Source of the DNA: Sulfuriferula multivorans
GTDB taxonomy: Bacteria > Pseudomonadota > Gammaproteobacteria > Burkholderiales > Sulfuriferulaceae
DNA: 64,000 nt
Assembly (NCBI RefSeq): GCF_003851125.1
Contig: NZ_BGOW01000015.1
Location: 124,001-188,000 of the forward strand
Direction of reading: 5' to 3'
Shown here: positions 38,678-56,739 of the stretch, piece after piece
Layout: every line of letters starts with the position of its first letter
Numbering within the stretch: position 1 is the stretch's first letter
Translations under genes and position numbers: made by a program
Notes under the pieces: model-generated
Told to the model about the DNA's origin: nothing
Database searches by the model: none
The model's input: the letters and a program-made list of their open reading frames with translations, nothing else

Positions 38678-39814
38678 TTAAATCAGCCCGGCACCAATCT
38701 CTTCACCGGCCATCTGGCGCTTGACGATTTCCACGTCCTTGCGCGCCAGCGCGAACGGGAACGAGAGGATGTCGGAAGGACTGGAATCGCCATACGGGCG
38801 ATTGCAGGCAGACACTTCTTCGTCGTCCTTGCCGGGACAGCCGGAAGTCTGGAACGGCTTGCCGGAATTCACCAGATCCGTCAGTTCGTCTTCCGGCACG
38901 CCAAAATCGATCACCTTGCCGTCCGCATCGAACAGCATTTTGCTGACGTGGCCGCCGGCGTAGTCAATGATGAAGCGCGCCAGTTGCACGCGGCGCCATT
39001 GGCCTTTGTCGCAAGCTGGCCAGTCTTCCATCATCGAGCCCTGCTCGGGGTAGAAGGCGAACATATGGTTGTGGCCGCCCATGTCCTTGATCTTCTGGCA
39101 GACTTCGAGAATCTCCTGCTCGGTCTCGCCCATGCCGCAAATCAGGTGGGCACCGAATTTTTCCGGACCGAATATTTCCGCTGCCCATTCGATGGCTTGC
39201 CAGTATTTGCTGTAGCGGTGCGGGCTGTCCACGGTCTTGCCGCGGGTGCGTTCGAAAATCGCCGGGGTGACTGCGTCCAGCGCCACGGTAAAGATATCGG
39301 CACCCATCTTGTGCAGGCGCACTAGGTCGTCTTTTTCCATGGTGGTGGGATTGGACAGGATGGACACCGGAATATGCGGCAGCGCCTTCATCCATTTATC
39401 CAGCAGCACGAAGGTATCGGCATCGGAATTGGGATGGGTGATCATGGAGATGCACATGCGCTGGAACTGGCCTTTGTCATTTCCCACTTTGACGCGCTCG
39501 ATGACTTCGTCGTAACGTGCGGTGGGCCAGTCCACGCGGATGAAGTTGCGATCCGCATAATCGCGCGACTCTTCACGATGCCGTGCCAGACCGCAATAAG
39601 TGCAGTTGGCGCGACAGCCTTCCGGATAAGTCACCAGAAGGTTCAGGCAGTTGGTGCAGGCGGTGCGGTGCATGTTGCCCGGCACCAGACCCAGCGTGAT
39701 CGCAGCCGCGGTGCTCATTTGCACATACTCGGGCGAACGCATGTCGGGGGTTTTGACATGGTAGTTGGGGCGATAAAACTGTACGACTTGAGGTTGATCC
39801 AGTACGGCGCTCAT
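38678..39814 (-). CDS. lipS1: radical SAM lipoate synthase subunit LipS1 (sHdr-associated)
   Basis: A 378-residue radical SAM enzyme. The cluster motif is CRANCTYC (Cys67, Cys71, Cys74), with two further Cys in ACTNC (53, 56) and two near the C-terminus (SGCPGK, SACNRPYG) that may hold an auxiliary cluster. In sHdr organisms two radical SAM proteins, LipS1 and LipS2, together insert sulfur into octanoyl groups on LbpA. AAGGAG 6 bases before the ATG supports the start. It is the last gene of the operon. The LipS1/LipS2 numbering follows gene order next to lipT and could be reversed. Confidence 0.8.
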   Translation of the reverse strand: MSAVLDQPQVVQFYRPNYHVKTPDMRSPEYVQMSTAAAITLGLVPGNMHRTACTNCLNLLVTYPEGCRANCTYCGLARHREESRDYADRNFIRVDWPTARYDEVIERVKVGNDKGQFQRMCISMITHPNSDADTFVLLDKWMKALPHIPVSILSNPTTMEKDDLVRLHKMGADIFTVALDAVTPAIFERTRGKTVDSPHRYSKYWQAIEWAAEIFGPEKFGAHLICGMGETEQEILEVCQKIKDMGGHNHMFAFYPEQGSMMEDWPACDKGQWRRVQLARFIIDYAGGHVSKMLFDADGKVIDFGVPEDELTDLVNSGKPFQTSGCPGKDDEEVSACNRPYGDSSPSDILSFPFALARKDVEIVKRQMAGEEIGAGLI

Positions 39815-39847
39815 GCGACTCTCCTTAAAAGCACGGTTTCCAATTAT

Positions 39848-40915
39848 TCAAGCAGCGAAATAGTCCGGGAAGGCAATCCAGCTCTTGCGGTGCAAGGGAT
39901 CGGCGTGCGCTTCCTCGGTGTTCCAGAACTTGTCCAGCCAGCGGCGGCGTTCCGCTGCACGGCTTACCGCGACTTCGAACTGGTCGCGGATGTCTTCTTC
40001 AAAATCTTCCAGCGCGGCACGGTCGTTATGCTTCAACCATGCCACAGCAGCTTGTCCGGCGCGTTCGCCGGAGATCACCGCCGCCGCGATGCCCGCACCC
40101 GTGATCGGATGGGTGAGGCCGGCCGCATCGCCGGTAAACAACACCTTGTCCACCACCAGATGCTCGCGCAGGCCACCCACTGGGATCGCGCCGCCGGTAC
40201 GGTAGCTGATCTCGGCACCGACCAGGTCTTGCGCCATCAATTGCTGATGCAACGCATCGAGCGGTGCCTTCATGTCGCCTGCGAAACGTTTTTCCAGCCC
40301 CAGCCCGAGATTCGCCAGCTTGCCCTTGGGAAACAGCCAGGCATAGCCACCAGGGTAGGCGGGCGAGAGCCAGATGTCGGTATCCACATAGGCGCGTTTC
40401 AGCGGCACGGTGTACTGGCGCGTGGTTACCACTTCCATCTCGGGCAATCCCAGCGCCTCTGCAACAGGAGAATGCGGGCCATCGGCGGCAATCAGCAGCT
40501 TGTAGCTGACGTCGATTTCGCCAGTCGACGTTTTGACTCGCGCCACGGATTGCGCGGCATCAAGCCTGGTCAGGCGGCTATCCAGCATGAGTTCCGCACC
40601 CTGCGTCGCGGCCTCGTGCGCCAGTGCCTGGTCGAATGCAGCGCGGTCTATCATCAGACCGGGGAAATCGGTCTCGGCCACGGTGCCAGAGGGCAGGTAG
40701 CTTTTCATGCCCTTGATGTGTTGTAACAGTACGCCGTCGGCCATGGCGTATTTTCCCATCGGCAACGGGATGAATTCCGCGCATTGCACCGGCAAGCCGA
40801 TTTCATGGCGGCGATCCACACCCAGTACGCTTAACCCGCCATGCGCCGCGGCTACAGCGGCAGCGGCACCGGCCGGGCCCAAACCAATAATCAGCACATC
40901 GACTTGGCGCATCAT
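39848..40915 (-). CDS. lipT: LipT-type FAD-dependent oxidoreductase (sHdr lipoate assembly)
   Basis: A 355-residue flavoprotein of the geranylgeranyl-reductase/FAD monooxygenase-like group. The dinucleotide-binding motif VLIIGLGPAGAAAAVAAAHG opens the protein, and LFTGDAAGLTHPITGAGIAAA is the second FAD-binding motif near residue 260. LipT is known as the constant partner of lipS1 and sLpl(AB) in sHdr clusters, where it may supply electrons to the radical SAM step. Its ATG overlaps the sLpl(AB) stop by 4 bases. Confidence 0.82.
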   Translation of the reverse strand: MMRQVDVLIIGLGPAGAAAAVAAAHGGLSVLGVDRRHEIGLPVQCAEFIPLPMGKYAMADGVLLQHIKGMKSYLPSGTVAETDFPGLMIDRAAFDQALAHEAATQGAELMLDSRLTRLDAAQSVARVKTSTGEIDVSYKLLIAADGPHSPVAEALGLPEMEVVTTRQYTVPLKRAYVDTDIWLSPAYPGGYAWLFPKGKLANLGLGLEKRFAGDMKAPLDALHQQLMAQDLVGAEISYRTGGAIPVGGLREHLVVDKVLFTGDAAGLTHPITGAGIAAAVISGERAGQAAVAWLKHNDRAALEDFEEDIRDQFEVAVSRAAERRRWLDKFWNTEEAHADPLHRKSWIAFPDYFAA

Positions 40916-41985
40916 GCTGCAGCCTCGCTATTGGCCTGCGCCAGTGCTTCGTGCAGCACGCTGACAAAATCATCCGCCGTCAGGGTCAGCATATCGACTG
41001 AGCGCGTGGCAAAAAACTGTTTCACGTTAAGCGCCAACTGTTCGGCAAGCGTGTCGCGCAGGGCGGCCTCCAGGTCAGCAAGCGTACGGCTCGGGCTGAT
41101 GAATACATCGCCGGAAAACCACACCTGCTTGATGCGGCTCTGAGTACGGTCAAACGCCACACTGGCACGCAACAGACCACCGGAGAACTTGCGTACAGCA
41201 TTCAGCGTGGGTTGGTCGACTGCTGGTCGAGCGAGCAGGTTGATCCAGTCTGGATGATCGATTTCAGCCAGTGCGTCGTTATAAAGCGCCTCTTCATGCG
41301 AGGTAAGCAATGCAGGGGTGAATTCCACATCAAATTCTTCAGAAAACGCATTCGCCAGTGCAGACTGGACCTGCGCCATCGGCGGCACCCGATCCAACAA
41401 ATCTGCAAGGTTGGCCACGCGCTCACGCGCCGAGGCGATGGCTTTGTCAGAAAGTTTTTCCGCAGGAATTTTGAGCACGCGCAGCATTTTTTCCACATCG
41501 AATTCGATCAGCAGCGTGCCTTGGTACATCAAGGCATCGCCGTCAAACGCCCCACCGGTGCCGGATATTTTACGTCCGTCCACTTCGATATCGTTGCGCG
41601 GGCGGAATTTGGCATCCACACCCAGCGTCGAGATTCCACGTGCGGCCGCTTCACAGATACGGCGCGAGATTTCGGTCATGTCTGCCGTGCCCAGTTCATG
41701 CTTGTGCAGGTACAGCTCCCACCCTATCTGGGTGGTGTCGAAATAGATTGCGCCACCGCCGGTAATACGGCGCTGGATGGTGACGCCGTGTTCGCGGCAA
41801 TAGTCCAGATTGAGTTCCTGCTCGGCACTCTGGTGATAACCCAACAGCGCGCACGGCTCAAAACGCAAAAAACGCAGTGTGCTGAGGCTGGCATTTTGCT
41901 GGCGCGCTTCCAGCAAAGCCCGATTCAACGCTATATTTTGCGCTGCGGGTCGCAGGCCGGTATCGAGTAAACGCCAGGTGGTCAC
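40912..41985 (-). CDS. slpl(AB): sHdr-associated lipoate:protein ligase sLpl(AB), GTG start
   Basis: A 357-residue ligase that, by family, attaches octanoate or lipoate to the lysine of LbpA. The catalytic domain (residues 1-240) has RRITGGG at 72-78 and Lys139 in GRKISGTGGAF. An LplB-like accessory domain occupies about residues 255-350, giving the fused AB layout. It starts at GTG with AGGA 8 bases upstream, and TTWRLLDTG matches the family N-terminus. The gene sits between lipS2 and lipT, as expected for the dedicated sHdr lipoylation module. Confidence 0.88.
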   Translation of the reverse strand: MTTWRLLDTGLRPAAQNIALNRALLEARQQNASLSTLRFLRFEPCALLGYHQSAEQELNLDYCREHGVTIQRRITGGGAIYFDTTQIGWELYLHKHELGTADMTEISRRICEAAARGISTLGVDAKFRPRNDIEVDGRKISGTGGAFDGDALMYQGTLLIEFDVEKMLRVLKIPAEKLSDKAIASARERVANLADLLDRVPPMAQVQSALANAFSEEFDVEFTPALLTSHEEALYNDALAEIDHPDWINLLARPAVDQPTLNAVRKFSGGLLRASVAFDRTQSRIKQVWFSGDVFISPSRTLADLEAALRDTLAEQLALNVKQFFATRSVDMLTLTADDFVSVLHEALAQANSEAAA

Positions 41986-41999
41986 GTCATTAATCCTGT

Positions 42000-43178
42000 T
42001 CAGCTACAGCAGCCGCCCACGGCTTCGGGCTGGCCAGCCATCACTACCTTGATGCCGCCGAGCGAACCGGCCGCAGCAAAAGTAGGGCGCTTCATGCGCT
42101 CGTGTTCGATGACTTTCTGGATGTCTACTTGCAGACCGGCGTCTGCGGTTTCAATCGCCATCACTTCATCGCCAATTGCGATGGAGCAACACGCCGGGGT
42201 GACACGCACATCGCGTTCCAGACGCACGGCAAGTTCCACCATGCCATCCGATGGATGCGCCAGACCATTGAGGCCGGCCATTACGGCGTAGCTGTCGATC
42301 TCCACCTTGGTACGGCCGGGCGGGCGGGCACAGCCGAGCAGCAAAGGCACATCCGGCAGCGCGGCGCGGGCATCCATGAAGAAACGTCCGACTTCGCGGC
42401 TATCCGGGGTAACGAAGGGGCGATTTTCCGGTGCATAAAACGGCATCACCACCACTAGCACGACCGCCTGGGGTTGATGACGCTGGATGATTTCCAGCGC
42501 ATTCCATTCGCCCAGCAGGTGCCCGTAATGCAGGCCTATCACGATGTGCGGTACGACCTTGAGCTTGGTCGAAACCAGGTATTCGAGGGTTTTCTCGAAG
42601 TCATCCACGCTACGGCGCAAATGATAGACCTGGGTGATCGTATCCTGCGAGCCAATCACGTCCATCATTGCCGCATCGATACCGCTGTCTTCCATGCGCC
42701 GCGCGATATCCATATCCACCAGTGCGGTATGCATGGCAATCTTGAATTCCGGGAAGCTATCCTTGATGCGTCGAATGGTTGCGTAGTAGTCGTCGTATTC
42801 GACTTCATTGCGGTGGTTGGAGCCGCCGGTTAACAGCATGCCCTGAGCGCCGCCATTGATCTGCTCGTTGACCACACGCCATAAATCTTCCGGGCTGCGC
42901 GCAGCAATCATCGGCTCCAGAATTTTGGCCTTGCAATGGTCGCATTGCAATTTGCAATCGCCCCCGGTAATGGATACCGCAGGCCAGGCACTTTTTCCGC
43001 AACCGGCAATTTCCGAACTGGCAAACGCCTTGAAGGTCGGCGTGTAAAAATTCACGCGCCCAACACCTTCACCGCGCACCTGCGCATATCTTTGCTGCAT
43101 TTGCCCGACCAGGGTGGCATCCAGTTCGATGCCATCCAGCGGCTCAACACGTTCAACGACTTCCAGCCAATCACTCAT
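42000..43178 (-). CDS. lipS2: radical SAM lipoate synthase subunit LipS2 (sHdr-associated)
   Basis: A 392-residue radical SAM protein with the motif GDCKLQCDHC (Cys75, Cys79, Cys82). MLLTGGSNHRNEVEYDDYY is a SAM-binding GGxxP-like segment. It ends in GGCCS, a Cys pair close to the C-terminus that could serve an auxiliary cluster. Together with LipS1 it would form the two-subunit lipoyl synthase that replaces LipA for LbpA. AGGT lies upstream of the ATG. A terminator-like hairpin separates it from lbpA1, so its expression should be lower than that of the carrier protein. Confidence 0.82.
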   Translation of the reverse strand: MSDWLEVVERVEPLDGIELDATLVGQMQQRYAQVRGEGVGRVNFYTPTFKAFASSEIAGCGKSAWPAVSITGGDCKLQCDHCKAKILEPMIAARSPEDLWRVVNEQINGGAQGMLLTGGSNHRNEVEYDDYYATIRRIKDSFPEFKIAMHTALVDMDIARRMEDSGIDAAMMDVIGSQDTITQVYHLRRSVDDFEKTLEYLVSTKLKVVPHIVIGLHYGHLLGEWNALEIIQRHQPQAVVLVVVMPFYAPENRPFVTPDSREVGRFFMDARAALPDVPLLLGCARPPGRTKVEIDSYAVMAGLNGLAHPSDGMVELAVRLERDVRVTPACCSIAIGDEVMAIETADAGLQVDIQKVIEHERMKRPTFAAAGSLGGIKVVMAGQPEAVGGCCS

Positions 43179-43279: not shown

Positions 43280-43717
43280 TTAGCAGCCGCCGAAACCGTC
43301 AGCGCCCATCTTGGTTTCGAACGCGCCCGCCACTGCACCGCCGGTAATCAGCGCACCCGAATCAGCATCCCAGTTGCTGGGCTTCATTTTTACCAGCCAG
43401 CCACTACCGTAAGGGTCAGCGTTGATGGTGCCGGGTTTACCGGCTACATCAGGATTGGTAGCAAGGATTTCGCCGGTCACCGGAGCTTTCACCGGACCAA
43501 CCCATTTGCCGGATTCAACCGTGCAAACCGATTTGTTCTGTTCGATTTCCTTACCTACTTTTTTCGGGGTATACGAAACGATCTCGCCCGCCAGTGAACA
43601 AGCGTAGGCTGTCATGCCAATGGTCAGTGTGCCGTCTGCTTCGCGGCGTGCCCATACGTTGTTGTCAACGTTGTAGAAAAGATCGTCAGGTAGATTACAA
43701 CCACGTACTGTTGCCAT
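43280..43717 (-). CDS. lbpA1: lipoate-binding protein LbpA, copy 1
   Basis: A 145-residue GcvH-like carrier. The lipoyl-lysine loop is CTVESGKWVGPV (Lys71), inside a barrel-sandwich domain framed by LAGEIVSYTPKKVG and VTGEILATNPDV. The tail ends in GFGGC. In sHdr organisms LbpA is an essential partner of the complex and differs from GcvH of glycine cleavage; no gcvT or gcvP is present here. AGGAG has the right spacing (8 bases) for the ATG at 43717, so this is preferred over the ATG two codons upstream. Confidence 0.92.
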   Translation of the reverse strand: MATVRGCNLPDDLFYNVDNNVWARREADGTLTIGMTAYACSLAGEIVSYTPKKVGKEIEQNKSVCTVESGKWVGPVKAPVTGEILATNPDVAGKPGTINADPYGSGWLVKMKPSNWDADSGALITGGAVAGAFETKMGADGFGGC

Positions 43718-43819
43718 GCTCATTTCTCCTCAGAATGAAATTCAATCAAACATTTAGTGCCTGCATATTTTGCAGGCGGTTCCGCAAGATTTAAGCGAAA
43801 TCTAGCTCACAGCGCCAAA

Positions 43820-44215
43820 TCAGAAATACATGGATTTGTCGCTGCTCAAAATCAAATCGGCAAGCGCGCCTGCATTGGATACTTCATCAATCTCTGCAAT
43901 GAGATCGCCAACATCAAGATCGTAACCAGGCATCGCCGGCTTGCATAAATGCAATTTTACTCCAGCCGCTTTCGCATCGCGAATAAATTCAAGAATGGTT
44001 TTACCATCTTTCATTGCCGCCAGATTTTCAGCCACGCCTTTTTTGGCCAGCATGACGCCTTCCATGGTAAAAAAGATGTGCACATCTGAATCCATCGAAG
44101 CAAGTATAGATCCGATATAAAATGGCGTGGCACAGCGGTGCGGAGTAGACGGGCCACTGGTCATGACGATAACAACGGATTTTTCTTCGTTGTCCAGATA
44201 ATGGTGGTCCGCCAT
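43820..44215 (-). CDS. DsrE-family protein in the lbpA region
   Basis: A 131-residue cytoplasmic DsrE/F-like protein. VVIVMTSGPSTPHRCATPFY gives the first strand with Cys28, and VKLHLCKPAMPGYD provides the later conserved Cys91 position used by DsrE-type sulfur carriers. It probably accepts or passes persulfide sulfur. Its start shares one base with the stop of lbpA2 (TGATG), so the two proteins are translationally coupled, which suggests they work together. The exact DsrE subgroup is not clear. Confidence 0.8.
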   Translation of the reverse strand: MADHHYLDNEEKSVVIVMTSGPSTPHRCATPFYIGSILASMDSDVHIFFTMEGVMLAKKGVAENLAAMKDGKTILEFIRDAKAAGVKLHLCKPAMPGYDLDVGDLIAEIDEVSNAGALADLILSSDKSMYF

Positions 44216-44661
44216 CAGCGCGCACCTCGCTCACAGTGTATGTCTTCACGCCGGGCACGTTCGCAATACCCAGCTTGCGCTGCATCGCCGGTCAACAAGA
44301 CGGACAGGGCTTCTTCCGCGGTACCAGACGGCCTTACCCGCGCAATCCATGCTTCGTAGGGTTCGATATTCAGCAGATTCGGGTCCTCCAGCACACTATG
44401 ATTGGCTTCTTCTATGACGCAATCGAATACGTTAGGGACGGGGCCTGCCCATTTACCGCTTTCAATCGTCGCAACAGGCTTGCCAACAGGGCGCAATGTT
44501 CCTGGACGGCGCACGCGCACGTGTAAAATCTTACCCGCCACCGTTTGTGAAATATCCGTCATGCCGACAGTCAGACTACCGTCTTCCTCACGGCGAACCC
44601 AAATCTGGTATTGGTCATCATAATAGAGTTCCGAGCGGAACTCGCAGCCATTGCATTCCAT
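44215..44661 (-). CDS. lbpA2: lipoate-binding protein LbpA, copy 2 (divergent)
   Basis: A 148-residue GcvH-like carrier with the lipoyl-lysine loop ATIESGKWAGPV (Lys70) and the flanking VAGKILHVRVRRPG and FDCVIEEANHSVL strands. It differs from copy 1 in having Cys3 and Cys6 at the N-terminus (MECNGC) and an Arg-rich C-terminus. Both the attachment lysine and its ESGKW context are conserved, so lipoylation is expected. The start lacks a strong ribosome-binding site. It follows shdrB2 after a hairpin. Confidence 0.88.
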   Translation of the reverse strand: MECNGCEFRSELYYDDQYQIWVRREEDGSLTVGMTDISQTVAGKILHVRVRRPGTLRPVGKPVATIESGKWAGPVPNVFDCVIEEANHSVLEDPNLLNIEPYEAWIARVRPSGTAEEALSVLLTGDAAQAGYCERARREDIHCERGAR

Positions 44662-44787: not shown

Positions 44788-45699
44788 TTAGACTACGCCC
44801 TTGGCATGGAGAAAGTCCAGCGAATCGCTGACGTTCTCATGCACACCCAGTTTACGTGCAGACAATCCCATAGCCAGTCCCAGTAACTGGGTAAAGTATA
44901 GGATCTTCACATGGGTCTTGATGCCGAATTCAGTTTCCGCACGCACTTGGTGCATTTCCAGACCAGAGTGGCAGGTCGGGCATTCAGTAGCGATCACTTC
45001 TGCACCCGCGTCTTCTGCCGCCTGGATGATATTCAGCACCAGTTGGGTTGAAGTATCCGCATCGGACAGTGTATGCGCCCCTCCACAGCATGCGGTTTTC
45101 AGCGGGAAATCCACGTTAACGGCTCCAGCCGCAGCGAGCAGGTCATCCATGAAGTGCGGCTTGTAGCTGGACTCCGAACCGGGGCCCTGGTCTTTTTCTG
45201 GAAAAATCTGACGCGGACGCGTATACATGCAGCCGTAGTAGTTGGCAATCTTGATGCCGTTCAGGCTCTTGGAGATTTTCTGTTTAATCCCTTCGGTACC
45301 CAGATCCTCCATCAGCCACTCGAGCAGGTGCACGGTACGCACATCGCCCTTATAGACCGGGTCGTCGGATTTCTTGGCCAGATCCTGCAGGGTTTTCAGT
45401 GACTCCTCTGAGGTGGCGAGTTCATACTCGGCTTTCTTCAAATTGTGATAGCAGCCATTGCAGGGCGCCATCACTGTATCGTAGCCCATTTGCTCACTGG
45501 CGATCGCCATATTGCGGGCGGACATATAGGTTTGCAGCATGGGGTGAACGTTTTTCACCTCCATCGCGCCACAGCAGTTCCAGTCCTGCAATGTTTCCAT
45601 TTCCAGACCGAGGCTCTTGACCAGCGCACGGGTAGAACGGTCATAAGGGCCGCCTGAACCCTCCAGCGCGCAACCCGGATAGTAGGCAACTTTAGCCAT
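44788..45699 (-). CDS. shdrB2: sHdrB2, heterodisulfide reductase subunit B-like
   Basis: A 303-residue protein with two complete CCG domains: PGCALEG, NCCGAMEV and APCNGC in the first half; YYGCMYT, ACCGGAHTL and ECPTCHSG in the second. In HdrB these cysteines bind non-cubane 4Fe-4S clusters that carry out disulfide chemistry. It is part of the cytoplasmic sHdr complex that oxidises protein-bound sulfane sulfur to sulfite. It overlaps shdrC2 by 8 bases. AGGAG precedes the ATG. Confidence 0.93.
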   Translation of the reverse strand: MAKVAYYPGCALEGSGGPYDRSTRALVKSLGLEMETLQDWNCCGAMEVKNVHPMLQTYMSARNMAIASEQMGYDTVMAPCNGCYHNLKKAEYELATSEESLKTLQDLAKKSDDPVYKGDVRTVHLLEWLMEDLGTEGIKQKISKSLNGIKIANYYGCMYTRPRQIFPEKDQGPGSESSYKPHFMDDLLAAAGAVNVDFPLKTACCGGAHTLSDADTSTQLVLNIIQAAEDAGAEVIATECPTCHSGLEMHQVRAETEFGIKTHVKILYFTQLLGLAMGLSARKLGVHENVSDSLDFLHAKGVV

Positions 45700-46462
45700 G
45701 TGCCAACTCCTTCTGTTCTTTCACATACTGTTTCAATACGTCACCGGTACGACCCCAGGACTTCGTTTTTGGCTTGATGAACATCGACAGCCCCATGTGC
45801 AGCGAGTGCATGATGGGTGTACGGGACAGGAATCTGAACACATTACCCTGGCGTAACTCGGTCCATTTGTTCATGCGCGCAACAAAAATACCCAGCCAGC
45901 CATGCAGCGCCATTTGCATCATGTCCTGCTTGGAGTTCTTGAAGAAATTGCTCATCACTTCAGAGTCTTCAATGCGGCCGCGTTCCAGGCACTGACGGGT
46001 GAATTCTTCATCAAAAATACTGGAATTGGATTTGCTACCGTAACCTTCTTCTTCGATCCAGTGCGCCAGCGCTTTCATGACGCCTTCCGGACGCACATCT
46101 TTCGGGCAGATATTGGTACATTTATTGCACGAAACACACTGCCAGATAATATCCTTGTCTTTCAGGATTTCGTCCTTGAGGCCGAGACGAACCAGATAAA
46201 TCCAGTAGCGCGGGTTGAAATCGGTATTCTGCGCGTACATCGTGCAAGAGTTTGTGCATGACCCACACTGCCAGCAACGGTGAACGTTCTCGGCACCGGA
46301 ATACGTTTTGATTTTCGTTTCAAAATCATCGTCGTAATCCTTCAGCGTGCGCGGCAGGATCATCGTATTCCAGTGACCTGACACGTCTACCCCGTCTACC
46401 ACCAGTTTGTCGCTGGTAATCAGACGATCAGCATCGATCAGTGTTTTTTCGTGAATTGCCAT
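45692..46462 (-). CDS. shdrC2: sHdrC2, iron-sulfur subunit
   Basis: A 256-residue ferredoxin-like subunit with two CxxCxxCxxxC motifs (Cys63/66/69/73 in CWQCGSCTNSC and Cys109/112/115/119 in CVSCNKCTNIC), which bind two 4Fe-4S clusters. It would pass electrons between sHdrB2 and the rest of the sHdr complex. No membrane anchor is present, in line with a soluble complex. It lies 70 bases after the hyp gene and overlaps shdrB2. Confidence 0.93.
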   Translation of the reverse strand: MAIHEKTLIDADRLITSDKLVVDGVDVSGHWNTMILPRTLKDYDDDFETKIKTYSGAENVHRCWQCGSCTNSCTMYAQNTDFNPRYWIYLVRLGLKDEILKDKDIIWQCVSCNKCTNICPKDVRPEGVMKALAHWIEEEGYGSKSNSSIFDEEFTRQCLERGRIEDSEVMSNFFKNSKQDMMQMALHGWLGIFVARMNKWTELRQGNVFRFLSRTPIMHSLHMGLSMFIKPKTKSWGRTGDVLKQYVKEQKELAHG

Positions 46463-46532: not shown

Positions 46533-47405
46533 TTAATGAACCACGTCGCGCTTGACTCTGGACTGCCCCGCCTTGCGTTCCGCATCGATACCAAGAAACT
46601 TTTTCAGCTGCTCTTGCGGCGTTATACCCCGGCCGAAATCCGCGCTCAACATGCCTTCCGCCATTGAGCGAAAATACTCCGAGTAAGCCTGTGCCTCCAC
46701 CAGATCGATCCAGAACGGCACATCTTTGTATAAACCCTGTTCGGCAATCTGCTCTGCCAGCCAGGCACGCGCTCCTTCAAACATCTCGGGGCTATTACCC
46801 AGCGGCACATCGGGTAAGGAATCATTACCCCGGATAAATTCGCGCAATGCGCCACTCACCGTATTCTGATCCCACACCCAACGCGTCATCAGCGGATACT
46901 TGACCGGGTTATTGAAATGCAGCATCTCAGCTCCAAAATCAAACGCTGCGCGCCGATTTTTGGCGGCCTGCTTACGCGTTTCCTTGTCTGCTGTTTCATC
47001 TATCGGTACGATTTCTGAAAATGCCTGCAATCGTTCAACCAGAGCCATATCCCCATACAGCAGCTCATGAATAGCGCCCCGCGCCGCCTCAACACCTAAC
47101 GTTTGTAGCGCCGGGAATAGCCGACGTCGGGCAGAAAATACCGTTTCCAGTAACGCTTCGATACCCTCCATCGACAAGGTAGGAAAGCTTTGCGGGTTAA
47201 GCAAACTGGAAAACAACTGGCTTTTCATCTGCAGACTGGCCAGCAACGCCTCCAGCCCAGCCGATTCTTCCGCCTGGCTACCCAGCTTCGCAAAGTGCTG
47301 CTGGAACAGACCGGGGTCTAGGGTTACTGACAATGTTGCCGGCACAATCGTGTCAGCCTCACCGACAGGAACCGCGCTATCAGGCTGCTTTTTGAACCAG
47401 AGCAT
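46533..47405 (-). CDS. conserved hypothetical component of the sHdr cluster (hyp)
   Basis: A 290-residue soluble, largely helical protein without Cys motifs. A gene of unknown function in this position, between shdrA and shdrC2, is a constant member of shdrC1B1A-hyp-C2B2 clusters. Here its start lies inside the last 26 bases of shdrA in another frame, so translation is coupled to sHdrA. The C-terminal GRGITPQEQLKKFLGIDAE is a helical segment. Its role is not known; assembly or scaffold functions are possible. Confidence 0.85.
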   Translation of the reverse strand: MLWFKKQPDSAVPVGEADTIVPATLSVTLDPGLFQQHFAKLGSQAEESAGLEALLASLQMKSQLFSSLLNPQSFPTLSMEGIEALLETVFSARRRLFPALQTLGVEAARGAIHELLYGDMALVERLQAFSEIVPIDETADKETRKQAAKNRRAAFDFGAEMLHFNNPVKYPLMTRWVWDQNTVSGALREFIRGNDSLPDVPLGNSPEMFEGARAWLAEQIAEQGLYKDVPFWIDLVEAQAYSEYFRSMAEGMLSADFGRGITPQEQLKKFLGIDAERKAGQSRVKRDVVH

Positions 47406-48429: not shown

Positions 48430-49773
48430 TTAACTCGCTCCTAGTGCCAATTCGGGGTTGTACAAGTATTCAATATTTCCGGCCTCGACTTCTTTGAGGT
48501 ATGCCTCGAATGTCTTTTTGGCTTCGGTCCAGGACATGCCCATTTTCTCCACCAGTTCTTCGCAGGGGGAAGCATGCCATTGCAGTTGCACAATCTTGAA
48601 CGGGTCCGCACCACAGGCCAGCGCAGCAAATTGCACATCAGCCATAATAGGCACGGCGAAATCATTATCGTGAGCCTTACCGATCCACTGGTTCTTGTCC
48701 ATGGTGGTAATACAGCCAGTGTCGATACCCAGCATCACGTCCGCATTGGCTTCTTCGCGGGCCACACGAATCTTGCGGTCCATGGTGAAGGAACGGGTGA
48801 ACTCGCGTTCGGAAATAATGTGCCGGAAGCCGAACCCGCAGCAGTCGTACCAGGTGGAGTAGTCGATCAGCTGGGCGCCGAGCGCCAATGCCACGGAGCT
48901 GCCGACGGCGGTACGGTTGCCACCCAGAACGCTGGGGTCGTAAATCGCATCTTCGTGCACCATCTTGTAGTAATGGCAGGCAGCGTGCATGGTCACACGA
49001 ATGTTGGACACATCGACGGTCTGCAGTTCGGAAGCGATGCGATTGCGCATCACGTGCACCCACTCGGAGTAGTGAATGATCTCTTCCGGAATGACCAGCT
49101 TGCCATCAACAAGACGCCCCAGTTTGCCAAGAATCTTGGTGACACGCTCGCGCAATTCAGCAGACTCAACCAGGTACTTGCGGATTTCCTTGTAGTTGCC
49201 GAAGGATGTTCCGCAATGCACCAGTGGAAAGAAATGACCTGCTTCGAAGCCATGCTGTTTGCCGGAAATATAAGCCTGGTGGAAATTACGCATGAACACA
49301 GCCGCCAGAGACTCGACGTTGCCGATACCAGAACCGTGATAGTTCCAGGCGGTGCAAGAAGTCTGGTCGGTTTCATCGAGGTAGTCCTTGCCCGGCTCAA
49401 AACCGAACTTGTTCATGAACCACAGCAAGGAGGTTGGGTAACCCGGGATATTCCCGCACTGGCCGCAGGACTTGTGGTGCCATAACTGCATGGTTGGTAC
49501 TTTTTTGGTCCAACCAAACAGGGTTTGCACTTCAATTGGTTTATGCGCATCAGTAATGCGATGGACGATAATCTGACCATCCTTTTCCAACTCCCACATG
49601 TGATCGCGAATGTCATCCATGCGCTCGCCGAGGTCTACGGTACGCTTGTCTACGTGCTTACGTACCCACTCGGTGGCTTTCGCGGCTTCAGCGCCAGAGA
49701 GGTTGGTTTGCTGGAAGAAAGAACCGTGTCCAGCTATGCCTTCGGTTTCGTTGCTATCCACAATATTGCTCAT
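48430..49773 (-). CDS. shdrB1: sHdrB1, subunit B-like with degenerate CCG domains
   Basis: A 447-residue HdrB-like protein, longer than sHdrB2. Its cysteine pattern is altered: SCGQCGNIPG, QTSCTAWN and HCGTSFG in the first CCG-like half, and AACHYY, DCCGFG and TGCITTM in the second. Both CxxC pairs have lost the last Cys, and one CC pair is SC. It therefore cannot bind clusters exactly as sHdrB2 does. AAGGAG 7 bases before the ATG at 49773 sets the start; the longer frame to 49866 is not used. Confidence 0.92.
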   Translation of the reverse strand: MSNIVDSNETEGIAGHGSFFQQTNLSGAEAAKATEWVRKHVDKRTVDLGERMDDIRDHMWELEKDGQIIVHRITDAHKPIEVQTLFGWTKKVPTMQLWHHKSCGQCGNIPGYPTSLLWFMNKFGFEPGKDYLDETDQTSCTAWNYHGSGIGNVESLAAVFMRNFHQAYISGKQHGFEAGHFFPLVHCGTSFGNYKEIRKYLVESAELRERVTKILGKLGRLVDGKLVIPEEIIHYSEWVHVMRNRIASELQTVDVSNIRVTMHAACHYYKMVHEDAIYDPSVLGGNRTAVGSSVALALGAQLIDYSTWYDCCGFGFRHIISEREFTRSFTMDRKIRVAREEANADVMLGIDTGCITTMDKNQWIGKAHDNDFAVPIMADVQFAALACGADPFKIVQLQWHASPCEELVEKMGMSWTEAKKTFEAYLKEVEAGNIEYLYNPELALGAS

Positions 49774-49822
49774 GGTCAAGCTCCTTAATTTAATGCGCTT
49801 AGTATAAGGTTGAGACGAACGA

Positions 49823-50506
49823 CTATTTGTCTTCCTGCTCTTCCAACCACTCTTCGTACTCTTCACGTTTTTCGTCGATAAAATCTTCGATCACGTCAAA
49901 CAGATTCTCGTCCATCGCCTCAAGCGAAGACAATACGCCGGTCATTTCCCAAATTGTATACATCTCAACCGAGGTTTTCAGCGAGACTTCCCATGCAGTA
50001 TCGGTGGTCTGCAATGTGCGCACCGGGATTGCCTTGCGCAACGTTTTGAGATCGCCTTCAACTTTCTGGATATTTGGACCCCAGTCCGGGAAGTGATCCG
50101 GCTGGATCATGTCTGGCGAAAGCTGATTACCAGTAGTAATAAGTTTGAGCATTACACGGCCAAATGGGCGCAGCACATCTTTGGCAGACTGCATTCCATG
50201 CTTGATGGATACTTCACGCATGATCATTACCAGACCGCCGGGGGAATTCTTGAATGGGCAGCGCGCAGCGCACGTCATGCACTGGGCACATGCCCATATT
50301 TTTTCCTGCATTGCGTCATAGATCTGCTCAACATTTTCGGTCCAGAGCAGTTGAACAATCTCGCGCGGGCTGTAATCATAAAACTGAGCGGACGGACACG
50401 TAGCGGTGCAAATCCCGCAATTCAGGCAGCCGTTCAACTCATGATCGTAGCGGAAGTCGCTACGAATATCGTCATAAATTTCGCGCATTTCAGCGTAAGT
50501 TGCCAT
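49823..50506 (-). CDS. shdrC1: sHdrC1, iron-sulfur subunit
   Basis: A 227-residue cytoplasmic protein with two CxxCxxCxxxC motifs (Cys27/30/33/37 in CLNCGICTATC and Cys73/76/79/83 in CAQCMTCAARC) for two 4Fe-4S clusters. It is the first subunit of the sHdr core and passes electrons within the complex. The ATG at 50506 follows GAAGGGGT and gives MATYAEMREIYDDIRSDF, which resembles other sHdrC1 N-termini. The C-terminus is very acidic. Confidence 0.93.
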   Translation of the reverse strand: MATYAEMREIYDDIRSDFRYDHELNGCLNCGICTATCPSAQFYDYSPREIVQLLWTENVEQIYDAMQEKIWACAQCMTCAARCPFKNSPGGLVMIMREVSIKHGMQSAKDVLRPFGRVMLKLITTGNQLSPDMIQPDHFPDWGPNIQKVEGDLKTLRKAIPVRTLQTTDTAWEVSLKTSVEMYTIWEMTGVLSSLEAMDENLFDVIEDFIDEKREEYEEWLEEQEDK

Positions 50507-50559
50507 ATGCACCCCTTCGATTAACCATGCCAAATAGTTGACAAAACTAGTAAGGTATT

Positions 50560-50774: not shown

Positions 50775-51284
50775 TTAAATATACAAACAGATATCCGATT
50801 CGCCGGCAAACTCAAAAAACGTGGCGGCGCCACCGTATTCCAAACCGTCAATGAAGTCGCTGTGTTCAAAACCGAACAACTCGACGGTCATCTGGCAAGC
50901 AATAAACTTAACATCGGCTTCCTGACACATTTCGCGCAAGTCAGGGATCGTCGCGACACCATTATTTTTAATGGTTTGCTTCATCAAACTGGTTGCCACT
51001 GCCTCATATCCAGGCACTAGCGACTGCACGGCGTTAGGGATATTCCAATTTAGGCCACGGAACCACTTGGGCCCAAAAGGCATCTTCATTGGCATGCCCG
51101 GGTTACCCAGCGGGCTTACCTTGAGTACAGACAGGTCTTTACGAAGAAGCTGCAAACCATAGAACGTAAAGAAAATCTGGGTTTCGTAGTCCAGCGCCGC
51201 GGCAGTTGACGCCAAGATAAACGGTGGATAAGCCCAGTCCAAAGTACCCTTGGTTGCGATGATTGCAAGTTTCTTCTGATCCAT
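50775..51284 (-). CDS. dsrE: DsrE3-type sulfur carrier
   Basis: A 169-residue cytoplasmic DsrE/DsrF-like protein. It begins KKLAIIATKGTLDWAYPPFILASTA, typical of the DsrE3 (peroxiredoxin-like) group, and has Cys120 (LREMC) and Cys130 (FIACQMTVELFG) where DsrE3 proteins carry sulfur. Rhd-TusA-DsrE genes form a known sulfur-relay unit in sulfur oxidisers; TusA and DsrE exchange sulfane sulfur before it reaches sHdr. GGAGG precedes the ATG. Confidence 0.88.
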   Translation of the reverse strand: MDQKKLAIIATKGTLDWAYPPFILASTAAALDYETQIFFTFYGLQLLRKDLSVLKVSPLGNPGMPMKMPFGPKWFRGLNWNIPNAVQSLVPGYEAVATSLMKQTIKNNGVATIPDLREMCQEADVKFIACQMTVELFGFEHSDFIDGLEYGGAATFFEFAGESDICLYI

Positions 51285-51385: not shown

Positions 51386-51613
51386 TTATTTCTTTTTCAT
51401 GAAGAAAGTGTACTCGCCACCCGCTTCAGCAGACGATAACAGTTCGTTGCCTGTCTGTTTTGAAAACGCCTGAAAATCCTTAATAGCACCGGGGTCGGTT
51501 GCTACAATTTTCAAAACCTGGCCGCTCGGCATGTCAGTCAACGATTTTTTGCAGCGCAGAATAGGCAACGGGCAATTAAGACCACGCGCATCGAGTTCTT
51601 TATCAAAATTCAT
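51386..51613 (-). CDS. tusA: TusA-type sulfur carrier
   Basis: A 75-residue protein with the TusA signature ELDARGLNCPLPILRCKKSL; the first Cys (Cys14) of the NCPLP motif holds the persulfide. In sulfur oxidisers TusA passes sulfane sulfur from rhodanese or DsrE to the oxidising complex. AAGGAG 8 bases before the ATG at 51613 decides this start over a TTG two codons upstream. It lies between rhd and dsrE. Confidence 0.94.
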   Translation of the reverse strand: MNFDKELDARGLNCPLPILRCKKSLTDMPSGQVLKIVATDPGAIKDFQAFSKQTGNELLSSAEAGGEYTFFMKKK

Positions 51614-51714
51614 CTTCAAATCTCCTTAAGCGTCTAAAAAATGGAAAGCGGTGCAACATAAACCAAGCAGGTGATAATTGCAACTATCTGCATATCCCTA
51701 CCCAACTAGAATCT

Positions 51715-52126: not shown

Positions 52127-53062
52127 TCAGCAATGTTGGGCGCCGTGATATAGATTGACAACATGTCGCGCCTCGGCAAAAAACAACCAACGCTCAGCCA
52201 CCATCCCCAGCAATGCCGTTAAGACAGCTGCATAAATCGTGATAGCGGCACTACCGCCCACTGTCAAAATCAAGGCGGGGATAACAAACCCAGCTAAAAA
52301 AACGCATGTTTTCAGCGTCAAAGAAAATTTTCGAGCAACCTGAAAACCAAATTCCTGAGTAAGGAAAGTGCCATGCGTGTGCCCTGTATCCAGCAACCTG
52401 ACCGTGCCGCGCGTAAATCCAGTAGCTGTTTTAATGGTAGAGCCTGTTCCAGGGCTGGCAATCCAGAAATAATAGATCGCTTTAAGCGAGGCGGCCACTA
52501 CCAACAGAGCCAGCACTAACGTCACATAGCCAGTCAGTGCCACTTGGCCATTGCTTGCTACGGCCAGCAAGAGTAACGCGCCGCTGAAATGTCCTAGCGC
52601 CAGATAATTGGCTGGTACCAAGGGTGAATTCCACTGCCGGATGGTTTTCAGGCAGCCGTAGATCATGCCCGTACTGAATAGCGTGATCCATGCCAACAAA
52701 GTGGCGAGCGCACCAGCCATCAGACGCAACACTTCCAACTCGGGCAGTACCAGCCAGGTCAGCCCTAGATAGATTATCGCAAATGGATAGAACGCCATCG
52801 CGAATACCCCTTCGCGAGACAACCAGGAGGTTCGAAAACGACTGAATGCGCGCCAGGCATTTTTAGGGTTGGCCAGGTGAAACATGGACGAAGTCAGGCC
52901 CGCTGCCACCAAGACTAGCGCAAGGATACCGGCAATCAGTTTTTGCTCGACTGGCAATCCGCCATCCAAACCAAACAAATCCATCAGATACAGCAAGGTA
53001 AACAAACCAAAGCCAGCGCCGGAACTGACAGTAAAAAAAATAACAGAAAATGCGGGATGCAT
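52127..53062 (-). CDS. soeC: SoeC, membrane anchor of sulfite dehydrogenase
   Basis: A 311-residue DmsC-like inner-membrane protein with about eight hydrophobic segments, starting MHPAFSVIFFTVSSGAGFGLF. It anchors SoeAB to the membrane and hands electrons to the quinone pool. The first segment (HPAFSVIFFTVSSGAG) is typical of SoeC/DmsC. It lies 31 bases after soeB. Known: SoeABC oxidises sulfite directly to sulfate in the cytoplasm of several sulfur-oxidising bacteria. Confidence 0.88.
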   Translation of the reverse strand: MHPAFSVIFFTVSSGAGFGLFTLLYLMDLFGLDGGLPVEQKLIAGILALVLVAAGLTSSMFHLANPKNAWRAFSRFRTSWLSREGVFAMAFYPFAIIYLGLTWLVLPELEVLRLMAGALATLLAWITLFSTGMIYGCLKTIRQWNSPLVPANYLALGHFSGALLLLAVASNGQVALTGYVTLVLALLVVAASLKAIYYFWIASPGTGSTIKTATGFTRGTVRLLDTGHTHGTFLTQEFGFQVARKFSLTLKTCVFLAGFVIPALILTVGGSAAITIYAAVLTALLGMVAERWLFFAEARHVVNLYHGAQHC

Positions 53063-53093: not shown

Positions 53094-53789
53094 TTAGCGC
53101 TTTACAATACGGTTGGCGATGCCTTTGATCTTATCCTTGAAACCGGGCTTGCCCAGGTTTTCGGTCGGAATCGGCTTGGCTGTACGTACCGGCAAATAAT
53201 GATTCGTCGGGTTATAGCCCAACTCAGGCATCAATTGATAACCACCACGCTCACGTACCACGCTACTGACTGCTGAACCCGGATCATCCAGATCACCAAA
53301 CATGCGCGCATGTGCCGGACAGGTGAGCACGCAGGCGGGCTGGCGCTCTTCTATCGGGATTTGCAGGTCATAGATACGATCCACGCACAGGGTACATTTT
53401 TTCATGGTTCCGGATTCGCGATCCAGTTCACGCGCACCATAGGGACAGGCCCACGAGCAATAATTGCAGCCCATGCACTTGTTTTGATCAACCAGTACGA
53501 TACCGTCTTCGGCTCGCTTGTAAGAGGCTCCAGTAGGGCATACGGTGACGCAGTCCGCGTCTTCACAATGCATACACGACATGGGGAAATTGATGGTTTT
53601 GTTGTTAGGGTATTCACCCACTTCGTAGCTACGAATCCGATTAAACCAGACGCCTGAAGGCTCCGCACCATAGGGTTGGTAGTCTGTCAGAGGCGCCGTG
53701 GTGCCGGAAGCGTTCCATTCCTTACAGGCGATGGCGCAAGCATGGCAGCCCACGCATACGTCGAGATCGATAACGAGTCCAAGTCTCAT
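53094..53789 (-). CDS. soeB: SoeB, iron-sulfur subunit of sulfite dehydrogenase
   Basis: A 231-residue ferredoxin-type subunit for four 4Fe-4S clusters, with Cys groups CVGCHACAIAC (12, 15, 18, 22), CMHCEDADCVTVC, CMGCNYCSWAC and CTLC with CVLTC. It links the molybdenum subunit to the membrane anchor. There is no Tat or Sec signal, so it acts on the cytoplasmic side. It lies between soeA and soeC, as expected. Confidence 0.92.
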   Translation of the reverse strand: MRLGLVIDLDVCVGCHACAIACKEWNASGTTAPLTDYQPYGAEPSGVWFNRIRSYEVGEYPNNKTINFPMSCMHCEDADCVTVCPTGASYKRAEDGIVLVDQNKCMGCNYCSWACPYGARELDRESGTMKKCTLCVDRIYDLQIPIEERQPACVLTCPAHARMFGDLDDPGSAVSSVVRERGGYQLMPELGYNPTNHYLPVRTAKPIPTENLGKPGFKDKIKGIANRIVKR

Positions 53790-53859
53790 ATTGATACTTT
53801 CAAATTAATCAAGCCGGGCGGCAATGCCACCCGGCGAATCAGGGGTCGGCTAATGATTA

Positions 53860-56739
53860 TTATTCGCTGGGCTTGTCGTCGCTACGGGTACTATAGCGCA
53901 ACGTATCCGGACGCTCGCCATCGTCCCACGGCAAAGGTTTGAGCGCCGGGAATTCCGGCCAGCTGCCTTCTTCACCGGGAGCGGCTTTGGAGATTTTGAC
54001 GCGCAAATCGAACCAAGCTGCCTGGCCGGTGACCGGATCGGAGTTGGTAATGCGACGCTCACCTTGTTTGGCCGGCAACAATTCGGAAATCAGGTGGTTC
54101 AGCAGAAAACCTTTAGTGGCTTCCGAGGCATTCGGCTTCAGGCCCCATGCACCGCCCTGCTTGCCGATAGCGTTCCAGGTCCAGACAGTGTTTTCCTGAG
54201 TTCCTTCCATGGTACGCATCTGGCAGCGGATTTTGCCGTTATGCGACTCGACCCAGATCCAGTCATCGTCCTGCAAGCCCATACGTGCAGCCTGGCCACG
54301 ATTCATGTACATGTAGTTTTGCGCCAGAATTTGGCGTAACCACACGTTCTGCGAATCCCAGGAATGGTACATCAGCATGGGGCGCTGAGTCAGCGCAAAG
54401 AACGGGTATTCATTCTCGTCCACACGCGCCTGCTCGAGCGGCTCATACCATAGCGGTAACGGGTCAAAATACTTGGCCAGGCGTTCGCGGTCTGTCTGAT
54501 TATTAGGCTGTGGGCCATCGTACAAGCCCTGTCCTGCCAAACGGAATTTTTGCAGCGGTTCGGAGTAAACCTGCATGATGATGGGTTCTGACTTACCAAT
54601 AAAACCCACCTCCGCCGCGACATCCAAATATTCTTTATTGGCGAAACGGTTGTATTTCTGGCTATCCGGCCAGTGGTGCGCGAAGAACGACTCGTTCTCG
54701 ATGTATTTTTCCCACTGCTTCGGATTCGGCTCGCCCTTGAGCGATTTTTCACCGTTCTTTCCACGCCATCCGGCCAGGAAACCCACACCCGGAGAACGCT
54801 CATAGTTGACGATGAAATCAGGGTAATCCTTGAACTTGCGCGTCCCGTCGGCGTTGGTAAATGCCGGGAATTTCAGACGCGAAGCCATTTCCACCAGCAC
54901 TTCCTGCCACGGGCGCACATCACGGTCAAGTTTGATCAACGGGTAGCGAATCGCATCGGCGGCCGCATCCGGCTCGGAAATCGGCCGATCCAGCAACGAA
55001 ATAGTGTCATAACGCTCCAGATACGTGGTATCCGGCAATACCAGATCGGCAAAGTTGACCATTTCGGAATGGAATGCATCCACGACCACCAGGAACGGAA
55101 TCTTGTGCTGGCCCGGCTCTTCCGGGTCTTTCTCGCGCAGCATGTCCTGAACATTTTTGGTGTTCATGGTGGAATTCCACGCCATGTTGGACATGAACAG
55201 CATCAAGGTATCGATCGCATACGGGTCATGGTTGGTGGCATTGGTGATCACCATGTGCATGAGACCGTGCGAAGCGATCGGAATCTCCCAGGAGTACGCC
55301 TTGTCAATGCGCAGCGGATTACCGTCTGCGTCGATCACCAGATCTTCAGGGCGCATCGGGAAACCGAGCGGCGTACGCGACAGCGGCGTATTGGGCGCAT
55401 TGATCACGTCAAGATTGTTTTCCGGCAATTGATGCGGCGGTACCGGCTTGGGATAAGGCGCTCGTGCACGGAAATTGCCCGGGCCGTCCAGTGCACCCAG
55501 CAGCATCTGGATCAAATGCACCGCGCGGCAGGCATGAAAGCCATTTGAGTGCGCCGCTATACCGCGCATTGCATACATCGCCACCGGGCGGCCAATCACC
55601 TTGTCGTGTTTGCGCCCCCAACTGTCGGTCCACTCGATATCCAGTTCGACGGTTTCCTTGAACGCCACTTGCGCCATTTCCAGCGCCATGCGCTCAATGG
55701 TTTCGGCGGGCACACCGCATTCCTCGGCAACGTTGGCCGGCGCGTAGCGATCGTCCAGATAACGTTCGGCGGTGAGGCTCATCACGGTGCGTACCGGACG
55801 GCCATCAGGTGCTACAAAATCGCCGAACAGCGCCGGTGCGATGTCCTTGTCCAGGCCGTTGACGAAGGTTTTCTTTTCCAGATCCCACACCAGCGGGTTG
55901 CCCGCCTCGTCGCGCAAAAACAGCCCGTTGCCCTGCTGCCCCGGCGTATCGACGACCAGCCAGGCGCAGTTGGTATAACGAATCAGGAATTCCCAGTCGA
56001 ACAACTCGCGCGACAGCAGCACATGCACTACCGACAAAGCCAGCAGGCCGTCCATGCCGGGCTTGATCGGGATCCATTCGTCGGCAATGGCGGAATAGCC
56101 TGTGCGTACCGGATTTACTGAAACGAACTTGCCGCCATGGCGCTTGAGCTTTTCCAGGCCGATCTTGATCGGATTGGAGGAATGGTCTTCGGCCACCCCC
56201 CACATGATGAAATACTTGGCGTAATCCCAGTCCGGGGCGCCGAATTCCCAGAACGAGAAACCAATCGAATACAACCCCGCAGCCGCCATGTTAACCGAGC
56301 AAAATCCGCCATGTGCCGCCCAGTTTGGGGTGCCGAACTGCTGTGCCCACAGACCGGTGAGCGCCTGCATCTGGTCACGCCCTGTAAAAAATGCCAGCTT
56401 GGAAGGGTCCGTCGCACGAATGTCACCCAGACGTTCGGTGAGCATGTCCAGCGCCTCATCCCACTCGATTTCAACGAACTCGCCATCTCCACGCTCGGAT
56501 CCCGGCTTGCGCAGCAGCGGTTTGCGCAGCTTGGCGGCGGAGTATTGCTTCATGATTCCCGCCGAACCCTTGGCGCACAGCACACCCTGGTTGGTCGGAT
56601 GGTTGCGGTTACCCTGAATGAAACGGACTTTGTCCTCTTCCAGCGTGACTTTGATCCCGCAGCGGCAGGCACACATATAGCAGGTAGTAAACTTGATTTC
56701 CTGCTTGTCGTGATTTTCTATTTTGACGATTGCGTTCAT
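53860..56739 (-). CDS. soeA: SoeA, molybdopterin catalytic subunit of cytoplasmic sulfite dehydrogenase
   Basis: A 959-residue molybdopterin oxidoreductase. The N-terminal 4Fe-4S motif is C20-x2-C23-x3-C27-x27-C55 (TTCYMCACRCGIKV ... GVLCAKGSA). The protein has no Tat signal, which separates it from periplasmic DMSO, thiosulfate or polysulfide reductases and fits cytoplasmic SoeA. EFGAPDWDYAKYFIMWG and RGIAAHSNGFHACRAV are cofactor-binding regions. It should oxidise sulfite made by sHdr to sulfate. The start has only a weak ribosome-binding site. Confidence 0.9.
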   Translation of the reverse strand: MNAIVKIENHDKQEIKFTTCYMCACRCGIKVTLEEDKVRFIQGNRNHPTNQGVLCAKGSAGIMKQYSAAKLRKPLLRKPGSERGDGEFVEIEWDEALDMLTERLGDIRATDPSKLAFFTGRDQMQALTGLWAQQFGTPNWAAHGGFCSVNMAAAGLYSIGFSFWEFGAPDWDYAKYFIMWGVAEDHSSNPIKIGLEKLKRHGGKFVSVNPVRTGYSAIADEWIPIKPGMDGLLALSVVHVLLSRELFDWEFLIRYTNCAWLVVDTPGQQGNGLFLRDEAGNPLVWDLEKKTFVNGLDKDIAPALFGDFVAPDGRPVRTVMSLTAERYLDDRYAPANVAEECGVPAETIERMALEMAQVAFKETVELDIEWTDSWGRKHDKVIGRPVAMYAMRGIAAHSNGFHACRAVHLIQMLLGALDGPGNFRARAPYPKPVPPHQLPENNLDVINAPNTPLSRTPLGFPMRPEDLVIDADGNPLRIDKAYSWEIPIASHGLMHMVITNATNHDPYAIDTLMLFMSNMAWNSTMNTKNVQDMLREKDPEEPGQHKIPFLVVVDAFHSEMVNFADLVLPDTTYLERYDTISLLDRPISEPDAAADAIRYPLIKLDRDVRPWQEVLVEMASRLKFPAFTNADGTRKFKDYPDFIVNYERSPGVGFLAGWRGKNGEKSLKGEPNPKQWEKYIENESFFAHHWPDSQKYNRFANKEYLDVAAEVGFIGKSEPIIMQVYSEPLQKFRLAGQGLYDGPQPNNQTDRERLAKYFDPLPLWYEPLEQARVDENEYPFFALTQRPMLMYHSWDSQNVWLRQILAQNYMYMNRGQAARMGLQDDDWIWVESHNGKIRCQMRTMEGTQENTVWTWNAIGKQGGAWGLKPNASEATKGFLLNHLISELLPAKQGERRITNSDPVTGQAAWFDLRVKISKAAPGEEGSWPEFPALKPLPWDDGERPDTLRYSTRSDDKPSE

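Follow-up and report, generated by a model that had tools for sequence, protein, structure and literature searches.

The window analysed here is a 64,000-nucleotide stretch of the genome of Sulfuriferula multivorans (contig C15:124001-188000; genome of 3,619,383 bases in 87 contigs). Positions 38678-56739 are occupied by 19 consecutive minus-strand genes, with gaps ranging from overlap to 241 bp, in the transcription order soeA-soeB-soeC-rhd-tusA-dsrE2-shdrC1-B1-A-H-C2-B2-lbpA-dsrE-like-lbpA-lipS1-sLpl(AB)-lipT-like-lipS2. Such a one-directional locus had been claimed in an earlier reading of the same DNA (the original prediction) and is hereby confirmed. Judging from the gene content and from comparison with relatives, it is highly probable that this locus encodes a cytoplasmic pathway from sulfane sulfur to sulfate and that it is composite, with a removable sHdr core seated on a backbone of sulfur-relay and lipoate genes.

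As gene order in relatives indicates, the sHdr core and the lbpA gene next to shdrB2 (B2-proximal lbpA), usually together with the DsrE-like gene, are present or absent as a block between tusA-dsrE2 and the lbpA-lipS1-sLpl-lipT-lipS2 segment. The core acts like a cassette set into a wider backbone of sulfur-relay and lipoate genes, a reading adopted because in 17 of the 20 sHdr-negative loci of the order TusA-DsrE2 is followed directly by LbpA and the lipoate genes, the residues of LbpA are mostly kept and the protein appears to be under purifying selection. By the same comparison the two LbpA proteins are separable, one accompanying the sHdr core and the other the lipoate genes. LbpA had been defined as part of sHdr; its presence together with lipoate enzymes, without sHdr, in dsr-bearing bacteria would make a role of lipoate outside sHdr directly testable by gene deletion.

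LbpA and lipoate genes in genomes without the sHdr core

A query with the lipS1-proximal LbpA (1e-25) matched 53 of the 300 sampled genomes of the order, and the 45 with at least 48% identity were counted. These comprise all 25 genomes with sHdr and 20 without it; since sHdrB1 and sHdrB2 were each found in 25 of the 300 genomes, and in the same ones, the 20 sHdr-negative genomes lack B1 as well as B2. Among 350 sampled genomes of the class, LbpA was matched at 50% identity or more in 31, the window's own not counted, 19 of these with sHdrB2 and 12 without. Left out were eight of the 53 order genomes and six of 37 class genomes (the window's own aside), whose best LbpA match reached only 38-46% identity; among these 14, G264, G347, G485 and G589 have dsrA and G489 has sHdr.

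For most of the sHdr-negative loci, an assembly gap was dismissed as the explanation: tusA-dsrE2-lbpA is contiguous in the 17 order loci mentioned above, B1 and B2 are missing genome-wide, and completeness is 90% or more for 17 of the 20 genomes. Locus L215 is cut by a contig end and has lbpA with all four lipoate genes, L223 retains the dsrE-like gene, and at least one soe gene is present in six of the 20 loci. Among the 12 sHdr-negative class loci, tusA is adjacent in 10 and two or more lipoate genes are found in 7. Taken over both samples, TusA adjoins LbpA in 27 of 32 sHdr-negative loci, and at least two lipoate genes lie beside it in 25 of 32. Both states occur within one genus, where L311 (genome G454) reads tusA-C1-B1-A-H-C2-B2-lbpA-dsrE-lbpA-lipS1 and L301 (G564) reads tusA-dsrE-lbpA-lipS1.

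The lipoyl lysine is present in 30 of the 32 sHdr-negative LbpA proteins, Cys9 in all 32 and Cys147 in 30, the corresponding figures for 87 LbpA from sHdr loci being 87, 85 and 86 (some genomes enter these residue counts twice, as they do the Acidithiobacillus-locus and lbpA/dsrE-spacing counts given below). Both lysine-less proteins (L307 and L308, of genomes G510 and G610) are encoded next to tusA, with no lipoate genes in either locus. The ratio of nonsynonymous to synonymous substitution rates (dN/dS) of the LbpA region, obtained for hand-picked pairs with fused LbpA-LipS1 frames trimmed to LbpA, lies at 0.04-0.23 for 10 of the 11 sHdr-negative pairs and at 0.02-0.09 for seven of the eight sHdr pairs, the eighth being saturated. 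By these estimates, LbpA is under purifying selection both with and without sHdr, more weakly without it. In addition, a single open frame spans LbpA and LipS1 in five sHdr-negative loci, where it was read as protein (L219, L294, L295, L298, L300), and, judging from the length of the frame, in five sHdr loci (L066, L088, L094, L095, L101); this ties LipS1 to LbpA.

A plainer explanation would be that LbpA and the lipoate genes have no function beyond sHdr, the sHdr-less loci being remnants of its loss. LbpA is indeed essential to sHdr oxidation in Hyphomicrobium (PMC6067878; here and below, PMC identifiers stand for the available portions of the articles), the dsrE-like genes kept in L223, L301 and L306 resemble footprints of loss, LbpA shows a higher dN/dS without sHdr, and most or all lipoate genes are lost in L222, L224, L302 and L303. 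However, the near-complete retention of the lysine and both cysteines, dN/dS values well below 1 in all but one of the sHdr-negative pairs and the lipoate genes accompanying LbpA in 25 of the 32 loci speak against decay, and this explanation seems rather unlikely. We lean towards a backbone with a job independent of sHdr, in which, without the block, lipoylated LbpA would carry sulfur beside the reverse Dsr route.

A dsrA gene (1e-80) was found in all 20 sHdr-negative LbpA genomes of the order, in 18 above the curated cut-off and in two as sub-cut-off pieces, versus 35 of the 255 remaining order genomes (Fisher p 4e-16, relatedness ignored). In the class sample, seven of the 12 sHdr-negative genomes have dsrA (two as sub-cut-off pieces), the base rate being four of the 19 genomes with both LbpA and sHdr. 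The presence of dsrA in every one of the 20 order genomes also argues against the alternative that the sHdr-negative LbpA, instead of working with Dsr, partners a different Hdr-like complex (Qmo/HdrAACB of the Apr route being one example) or acts in sulfur sensing. In favour of it, HdrAACB/QmoAB-HdrCB is reported among the sulfur oxidation genes of such bacteria (PMC6397845), TusA beside LbpA would suit any sulfur use, and G510 and G610 carry LbpA with neither sHdr nor dsrA; all in all, we hold it to be improbable. As a tentative extension of the preferred reading, which we would rate as somewhat short of an even chance, lipoylated LbpA could carry sulfane sulfur in the cytoplasm as a general component of the Rhd-TusA-DsrE2 relay, serving interchangeably reverse Dsr or the sHdr cassette, the latter bringing a second LbpA of its own; genomes like the present one would then hold both machines alongside one lipoate backbone.

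Several findings weigh against a backbone that persists for the benefit of Dsr. The 20 sHdr-negative order genomes represent only eight genera and five families, and the association may reflect few events. Moreover, of the 55 order genomes that have dsrA but not sHdr, 35 lack an LbpA of the lipS1-proximal type; therefore, reverse Dsr has no general need of LbpA. The full lipoate set is absent from L224 (lbpA and lipS1) and L222 (lbpA alone), and L302 and L303 have LbpA with no lipoate genes at all. In the class, five of the 12 sHdr-negative genomes show no dsrA; three of these are 72-81% complete, while G510 (100% complete) and G610 (94%) count as real exceptions. Finally, beyond the generally higher dN/dS, one sHdr-negative pair reached 0.76 (about 20 substitutions), and some relaxation is possible.

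Occurrence and history of the sHdr core

The 25 sHdr genomes of the order include all nine sampled members of the genus, which share the same gene order. From the 24 other sHdr genomes 25 loci were fetched (G078 twice); 17 of them show the complete order sHdr core-lbpA-dsrE-lbpA-lipS1, the remainder being cut by contig ends or showing an alternative layout with one lbpA. The full order with soeABC recurs in the Acidithiobacillus loci L099, L108 and L121, among the best 80 of 425 named loci. The original prediction had proposed gene-order comparison as a check; by its recurrence within the order and in Acidithiobacillus, the arrangement of the core is more than chance. In only six of the nine genus members is soeABC adjacent (the window counted; not in L056, L057 and L060), and some soe gene adjoins the locus in 12 of the 25 fetched loci. 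In seven further Acidithiobacillus loci (L122, L127, L135, L137, L138, L142, L154) sHdrA stands alone, with 77-81% identity and no other cluster gene in the stretch.

In 58 of the 81 loci having both genes (L301, L306 and L223, which have no B2-proximal lbpA, are left out), the dsrE-like gene overlaps the B2-proximal lbpA or is separated from it by at most 5 bases, which suggests that the two may be translationally coupled. The notion that sHdr and dsr are mutually exclusive in the order was rejected, eight of the 25 sHdr genomes having dsrA.

A tree of LipS1, sLpl, LipS2 and LbpA was built from 90 loci, of which 23 are sHdr-negative; on it, the sHdr state switches no fewer than seven times, five of these changes being forced by well-supported branches (shuffled mean 20.6). 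The quick module tree and a FastTree run differ in places, and L304, L300, L310, L292 and L073 form long branches. The dsrE-like leftovers in L223, L301 and L306 point to a probable loss of sHdr in some lineages.

Repeated state changes and the recurrence of the order in distant Acidithiobacillus might also be expected if the locus were a recently acquired mobile island. Against this, there is no tRNA in the 64-kb window, and the eight flanking proteins that were scanned, which cover the flanks in part, include no mobile gene, so that the borders bear neither mark of an island; gene order is identical throughout the sampled genus, and conserved flanks in the family were taken to favour loss (PMC6397845). 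Recent acquisition as an island is thus very improbable, and the description of the locus as potentially transferable in the original prediction finds no direct support, all nine genus members being sHdr-positive in the same order. Of the eight flanking proteins, those upstream are of the BatD, VWA, DUF58 and MoxR types, while the downstream ones include an LplA-type domain protein and a valyl-tRNA synthetase; one of the eight has no match. Neither the locus nor these proteins include a recognisable regulator, in line with the original prediction for the locus.

Gene content of the locus and the proposed pathway

The genes of the locus, the neighbouring FadL gene and one hairpin are as follows (coordinates of the window).

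53860..56739, minus: soeA, molybdopterin sulfite-oxidising subunit; matches molybdoenzyme families, none above cut-off; CxxCxxxC motif
53094..53789, minus: soeB, iron-sulfur subunit; profile match, motifs
52127..53062, minus: soeC, membrane anchor (DmsC family); PF04976
51715..52038, minus: rhd, rhodanese-like sulfurtransferase; profile match
51386..51619, minus: tusA, sulfur carrier; PF01206 above cut-off, CPxP; ATG start probably 51613
50775..51284, minus: dsrE2, sulfur carrier; NF047629, 260 bits versus cut-off 210
49823..50533, minus: shdrC1; two 4Fe-4S motifs; ATG start probably 50506
48430..49866, minus: shdrB1; one CCG; ATG start probably 49773
47380..48429, minus: shdrA, FAD protein; profile match
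46533..47405, minus: shdrH; by position and conservation, no Pfam/NCBIfam match
45692..46462, minus: shdrC2; two 4Fe-4S motifs
44788..45699, minus: shdrB2; two CCG
44215..44661, minus: B2-proximal lbpA (LbpA1 in the order of PMC6382920); GCV_H, ESGK
43820..44215, minus: DsrE-like gene between both lbpA; PF02635; start shares one base with the lbpA stop
43280..43723, minus: lipS1-proximal lbpA (LbpA2 in the order of PMC6382920); ESGK; C9, K73, C147
43231..43261, minus: 13-pair hairpin followed by TTTT, between lipS1-proximal lbpA and lipS1; terminator scan (whole scan at chance level)
42000..43178, minus: lipS1, radical SAM lipoyl synthase half; top match LipS1, below cut-off
40912..41985, minus: sLpl(AB), lipoate:protein ligase; PF21948
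39848..40915, minus: lipT-like FAD oxidoreductase; geranylgeranyl reductase family above cut-off, named by position
38678..39814, minus: lipS2, radical SAM lipoyl synthase half; top match LipS2, below cut-off
37196..38485, minus: FadL/OMPP1 outer-membrane protein, probably lipY; PF03349; 192 bp past lipS2

The list originally predicted (SoeABC, Rhd-TusA-DsrE, sHdr, two LbpA and the lipoate set) stands, apart from its omission of the DsrE-like gene. SoeABC is so named because of its architecture, namely a cytoplasmic molybdenum subunit (no twin-arginine signal was seen in the SoeA N-terminus), an FeS subunit and a DmsC/NrfD-type anchor, and because of its context, since no Soe model of NCBIfam matched. 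The sHdr genes stand in the order C1B1AHC2B2, with H assigned by position only, and the B and C subunits carry CCG and 4Fe-4S motifs. The linked LbpA has the lipoyl lysine and two conserved cysteines; ESGK is found in both LbpA of the locus, and the cysteines of the B2-proximal one were identified by sequence. LipS1 and LipS2 scored 197.7 versus 230 bits and 193.6 versus 270 bits, respectively, under the curated NCBIfam cut-offs, and were assigned because they are best hits with a CxxxCxxC motif in a fitting neighbourhood; the ligase and these two radical SAM proteins beside LbpA make up the sLpl(AB)-LipS1/S2 set.

The FadL gene is counted in the locus because it recurs in relatives (in the same place in 12 of the 25 fetched sHdr loci and beside lipS2 in 17 of the 32 sHdr-negative loci) and because a putative fatty-acid transporter gene, lipY, is named in such clusters (PMC10332631). 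No operon map was drawn, because scanning 38400-57430 for promoters and terminators yielded only as many hits as chance would give (18 versus 16.4 expected and 23 versus 22.2, respectively). The hairpin may be an attenuator or an RNA end, keeping the output of LbpA above that of the lipoate enzymes.

By homology and published work on relatives, Rhd, TusA and DsrE2 would hand on sulfane sulfur, and lipoylated LbpA would present it to the sHdr complex, yielding sulfite, which SoeABC would oxidise to sulfate with the electrons passing to quinone; we infer the exact sequence of these relay steps. LipS1, sLpl(AB) and LipS2 would build lipoate on LbpA, with LipT as a possible electron donor (PMC10332631). 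Gene content and published pathway agree with the original prediction of sulfite formation by sHdr/LbpA, sulfate formation by Soe and a dedicated lipoate assembly, but the single sHdr unit that it implied is contradicted by the relatives keeping the flanking parts without sHdr.

Published clusters and other sulfur genes of the genome

The locus itself is an already-known kind of cluster. S. multivorans TTN was reported to have both dsr and hdr, its hdr neighbourhood is shown in a figure and the route is named Sox-Hdr-Soe (PMC6397845). The Sulfuricellaceae cluster of that report, from the same family as the window and probably from the same strain, likewise has hdrCBAhyphdrCB, soeABC and a co-resident dsr; in the available text, however, the flanking genes are not read as a lipoate/LbpA unit persisting without hdr. 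The regions flanking hdr are described there as directly adjacent in Sulfuricella, which lacks hdr, and Cao et al. include a Sulfuricella denitrificans LbpA (PMC6067878); together these two reports fit the occurrence of LbpA without sHdr. The Thioalkalivibrio cluster hdrC1B1A-hyp-hdrC2B2-lbpA1-dsrE-lbpA2 has the same core order, and the lbpA1-dsrE-lbpA2 arrangement was given by Berben et al. (PMC6382920); some strains carry dsr and hdr. There, soeABC was scored genome-wide, and the available text states no adjacency to hdr. The lip-shdr-lbpA locus of Hyphomicrobium denitrificans (PMC6067878, PMC10332631, PMC12423496) shares sHdr, LbpA and sLpl(AB), with functions tested by deletion, and differs in having one lbpA, ArsR-type repressors and excretion of sulfite.

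What is new is the comparative part, the LbpA/lipoate backbone that, as far as gene order tells, persists without the sHdr core. Within the titles, abstracts and available passages of open-licence PMC papers (subscription journals being outside the scope), no description of LbpA retained without sHdr in dsr genomes was found. Tanabe et al. noted that LipS1/S2 are not confined to sHdr organisms, the term dsr being absent from the available text (PMC10332631), and the question why two LbpA occur in some species was raised in the peer review of the LbpA paper (PMC6067878, decision letter).

The original statement that no sox or dsrAB genes accompany the locus is true of the locus itself but not of the genome. 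A dsrA above cut-off lies on the same contig, ~139 kb away; DsrA, B, E, F, H, C, K and O are above their cut-offs, DsrM and DsrP have best matches below theirs, and two soxB are above cut-off. By gene content, the organism carries both sulfite-forming machines, sHdr and Dsr. Near the dsr operon, a solitary second sHdrB1 (contig C15:29191-30552; L018:4291-5652) with 92% identity to the operon copy adjoins a divergent GAF-domain protein; no other of the 25 sHdr genomes in the order sample has a second copy.

Away from sHdr, the genome encodes a third LbpA-like protein, which has ESGK and the end cysteines (L020:9120-9566; contig C3, ~143 kb). It is flanked by a membrane-protein frame and a thioredoxin-like frame, both kept in all seven relatives fetched, with a Crp-type regulator (also in three of the seven) and a hemerythrin nearby. 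This orphan was rejected as a marker of sHdr-less genomes, since its close form (at least 58% identity) occurs in 12 genomes, all with sHdr.

Some 3 kb past lipS2 and the FadL gene lies a second, distant LplA-type catalytic-domain gene (34708-35634, minus strand; 24% identity to sLpl over 224 residues). A separate molybdoenzyme set, ~16 kb past the locus (L025:8580-13786; contig C15, ~197-202 kb), shows 24% and 35% identity to SoeA and SoeB, respectively.

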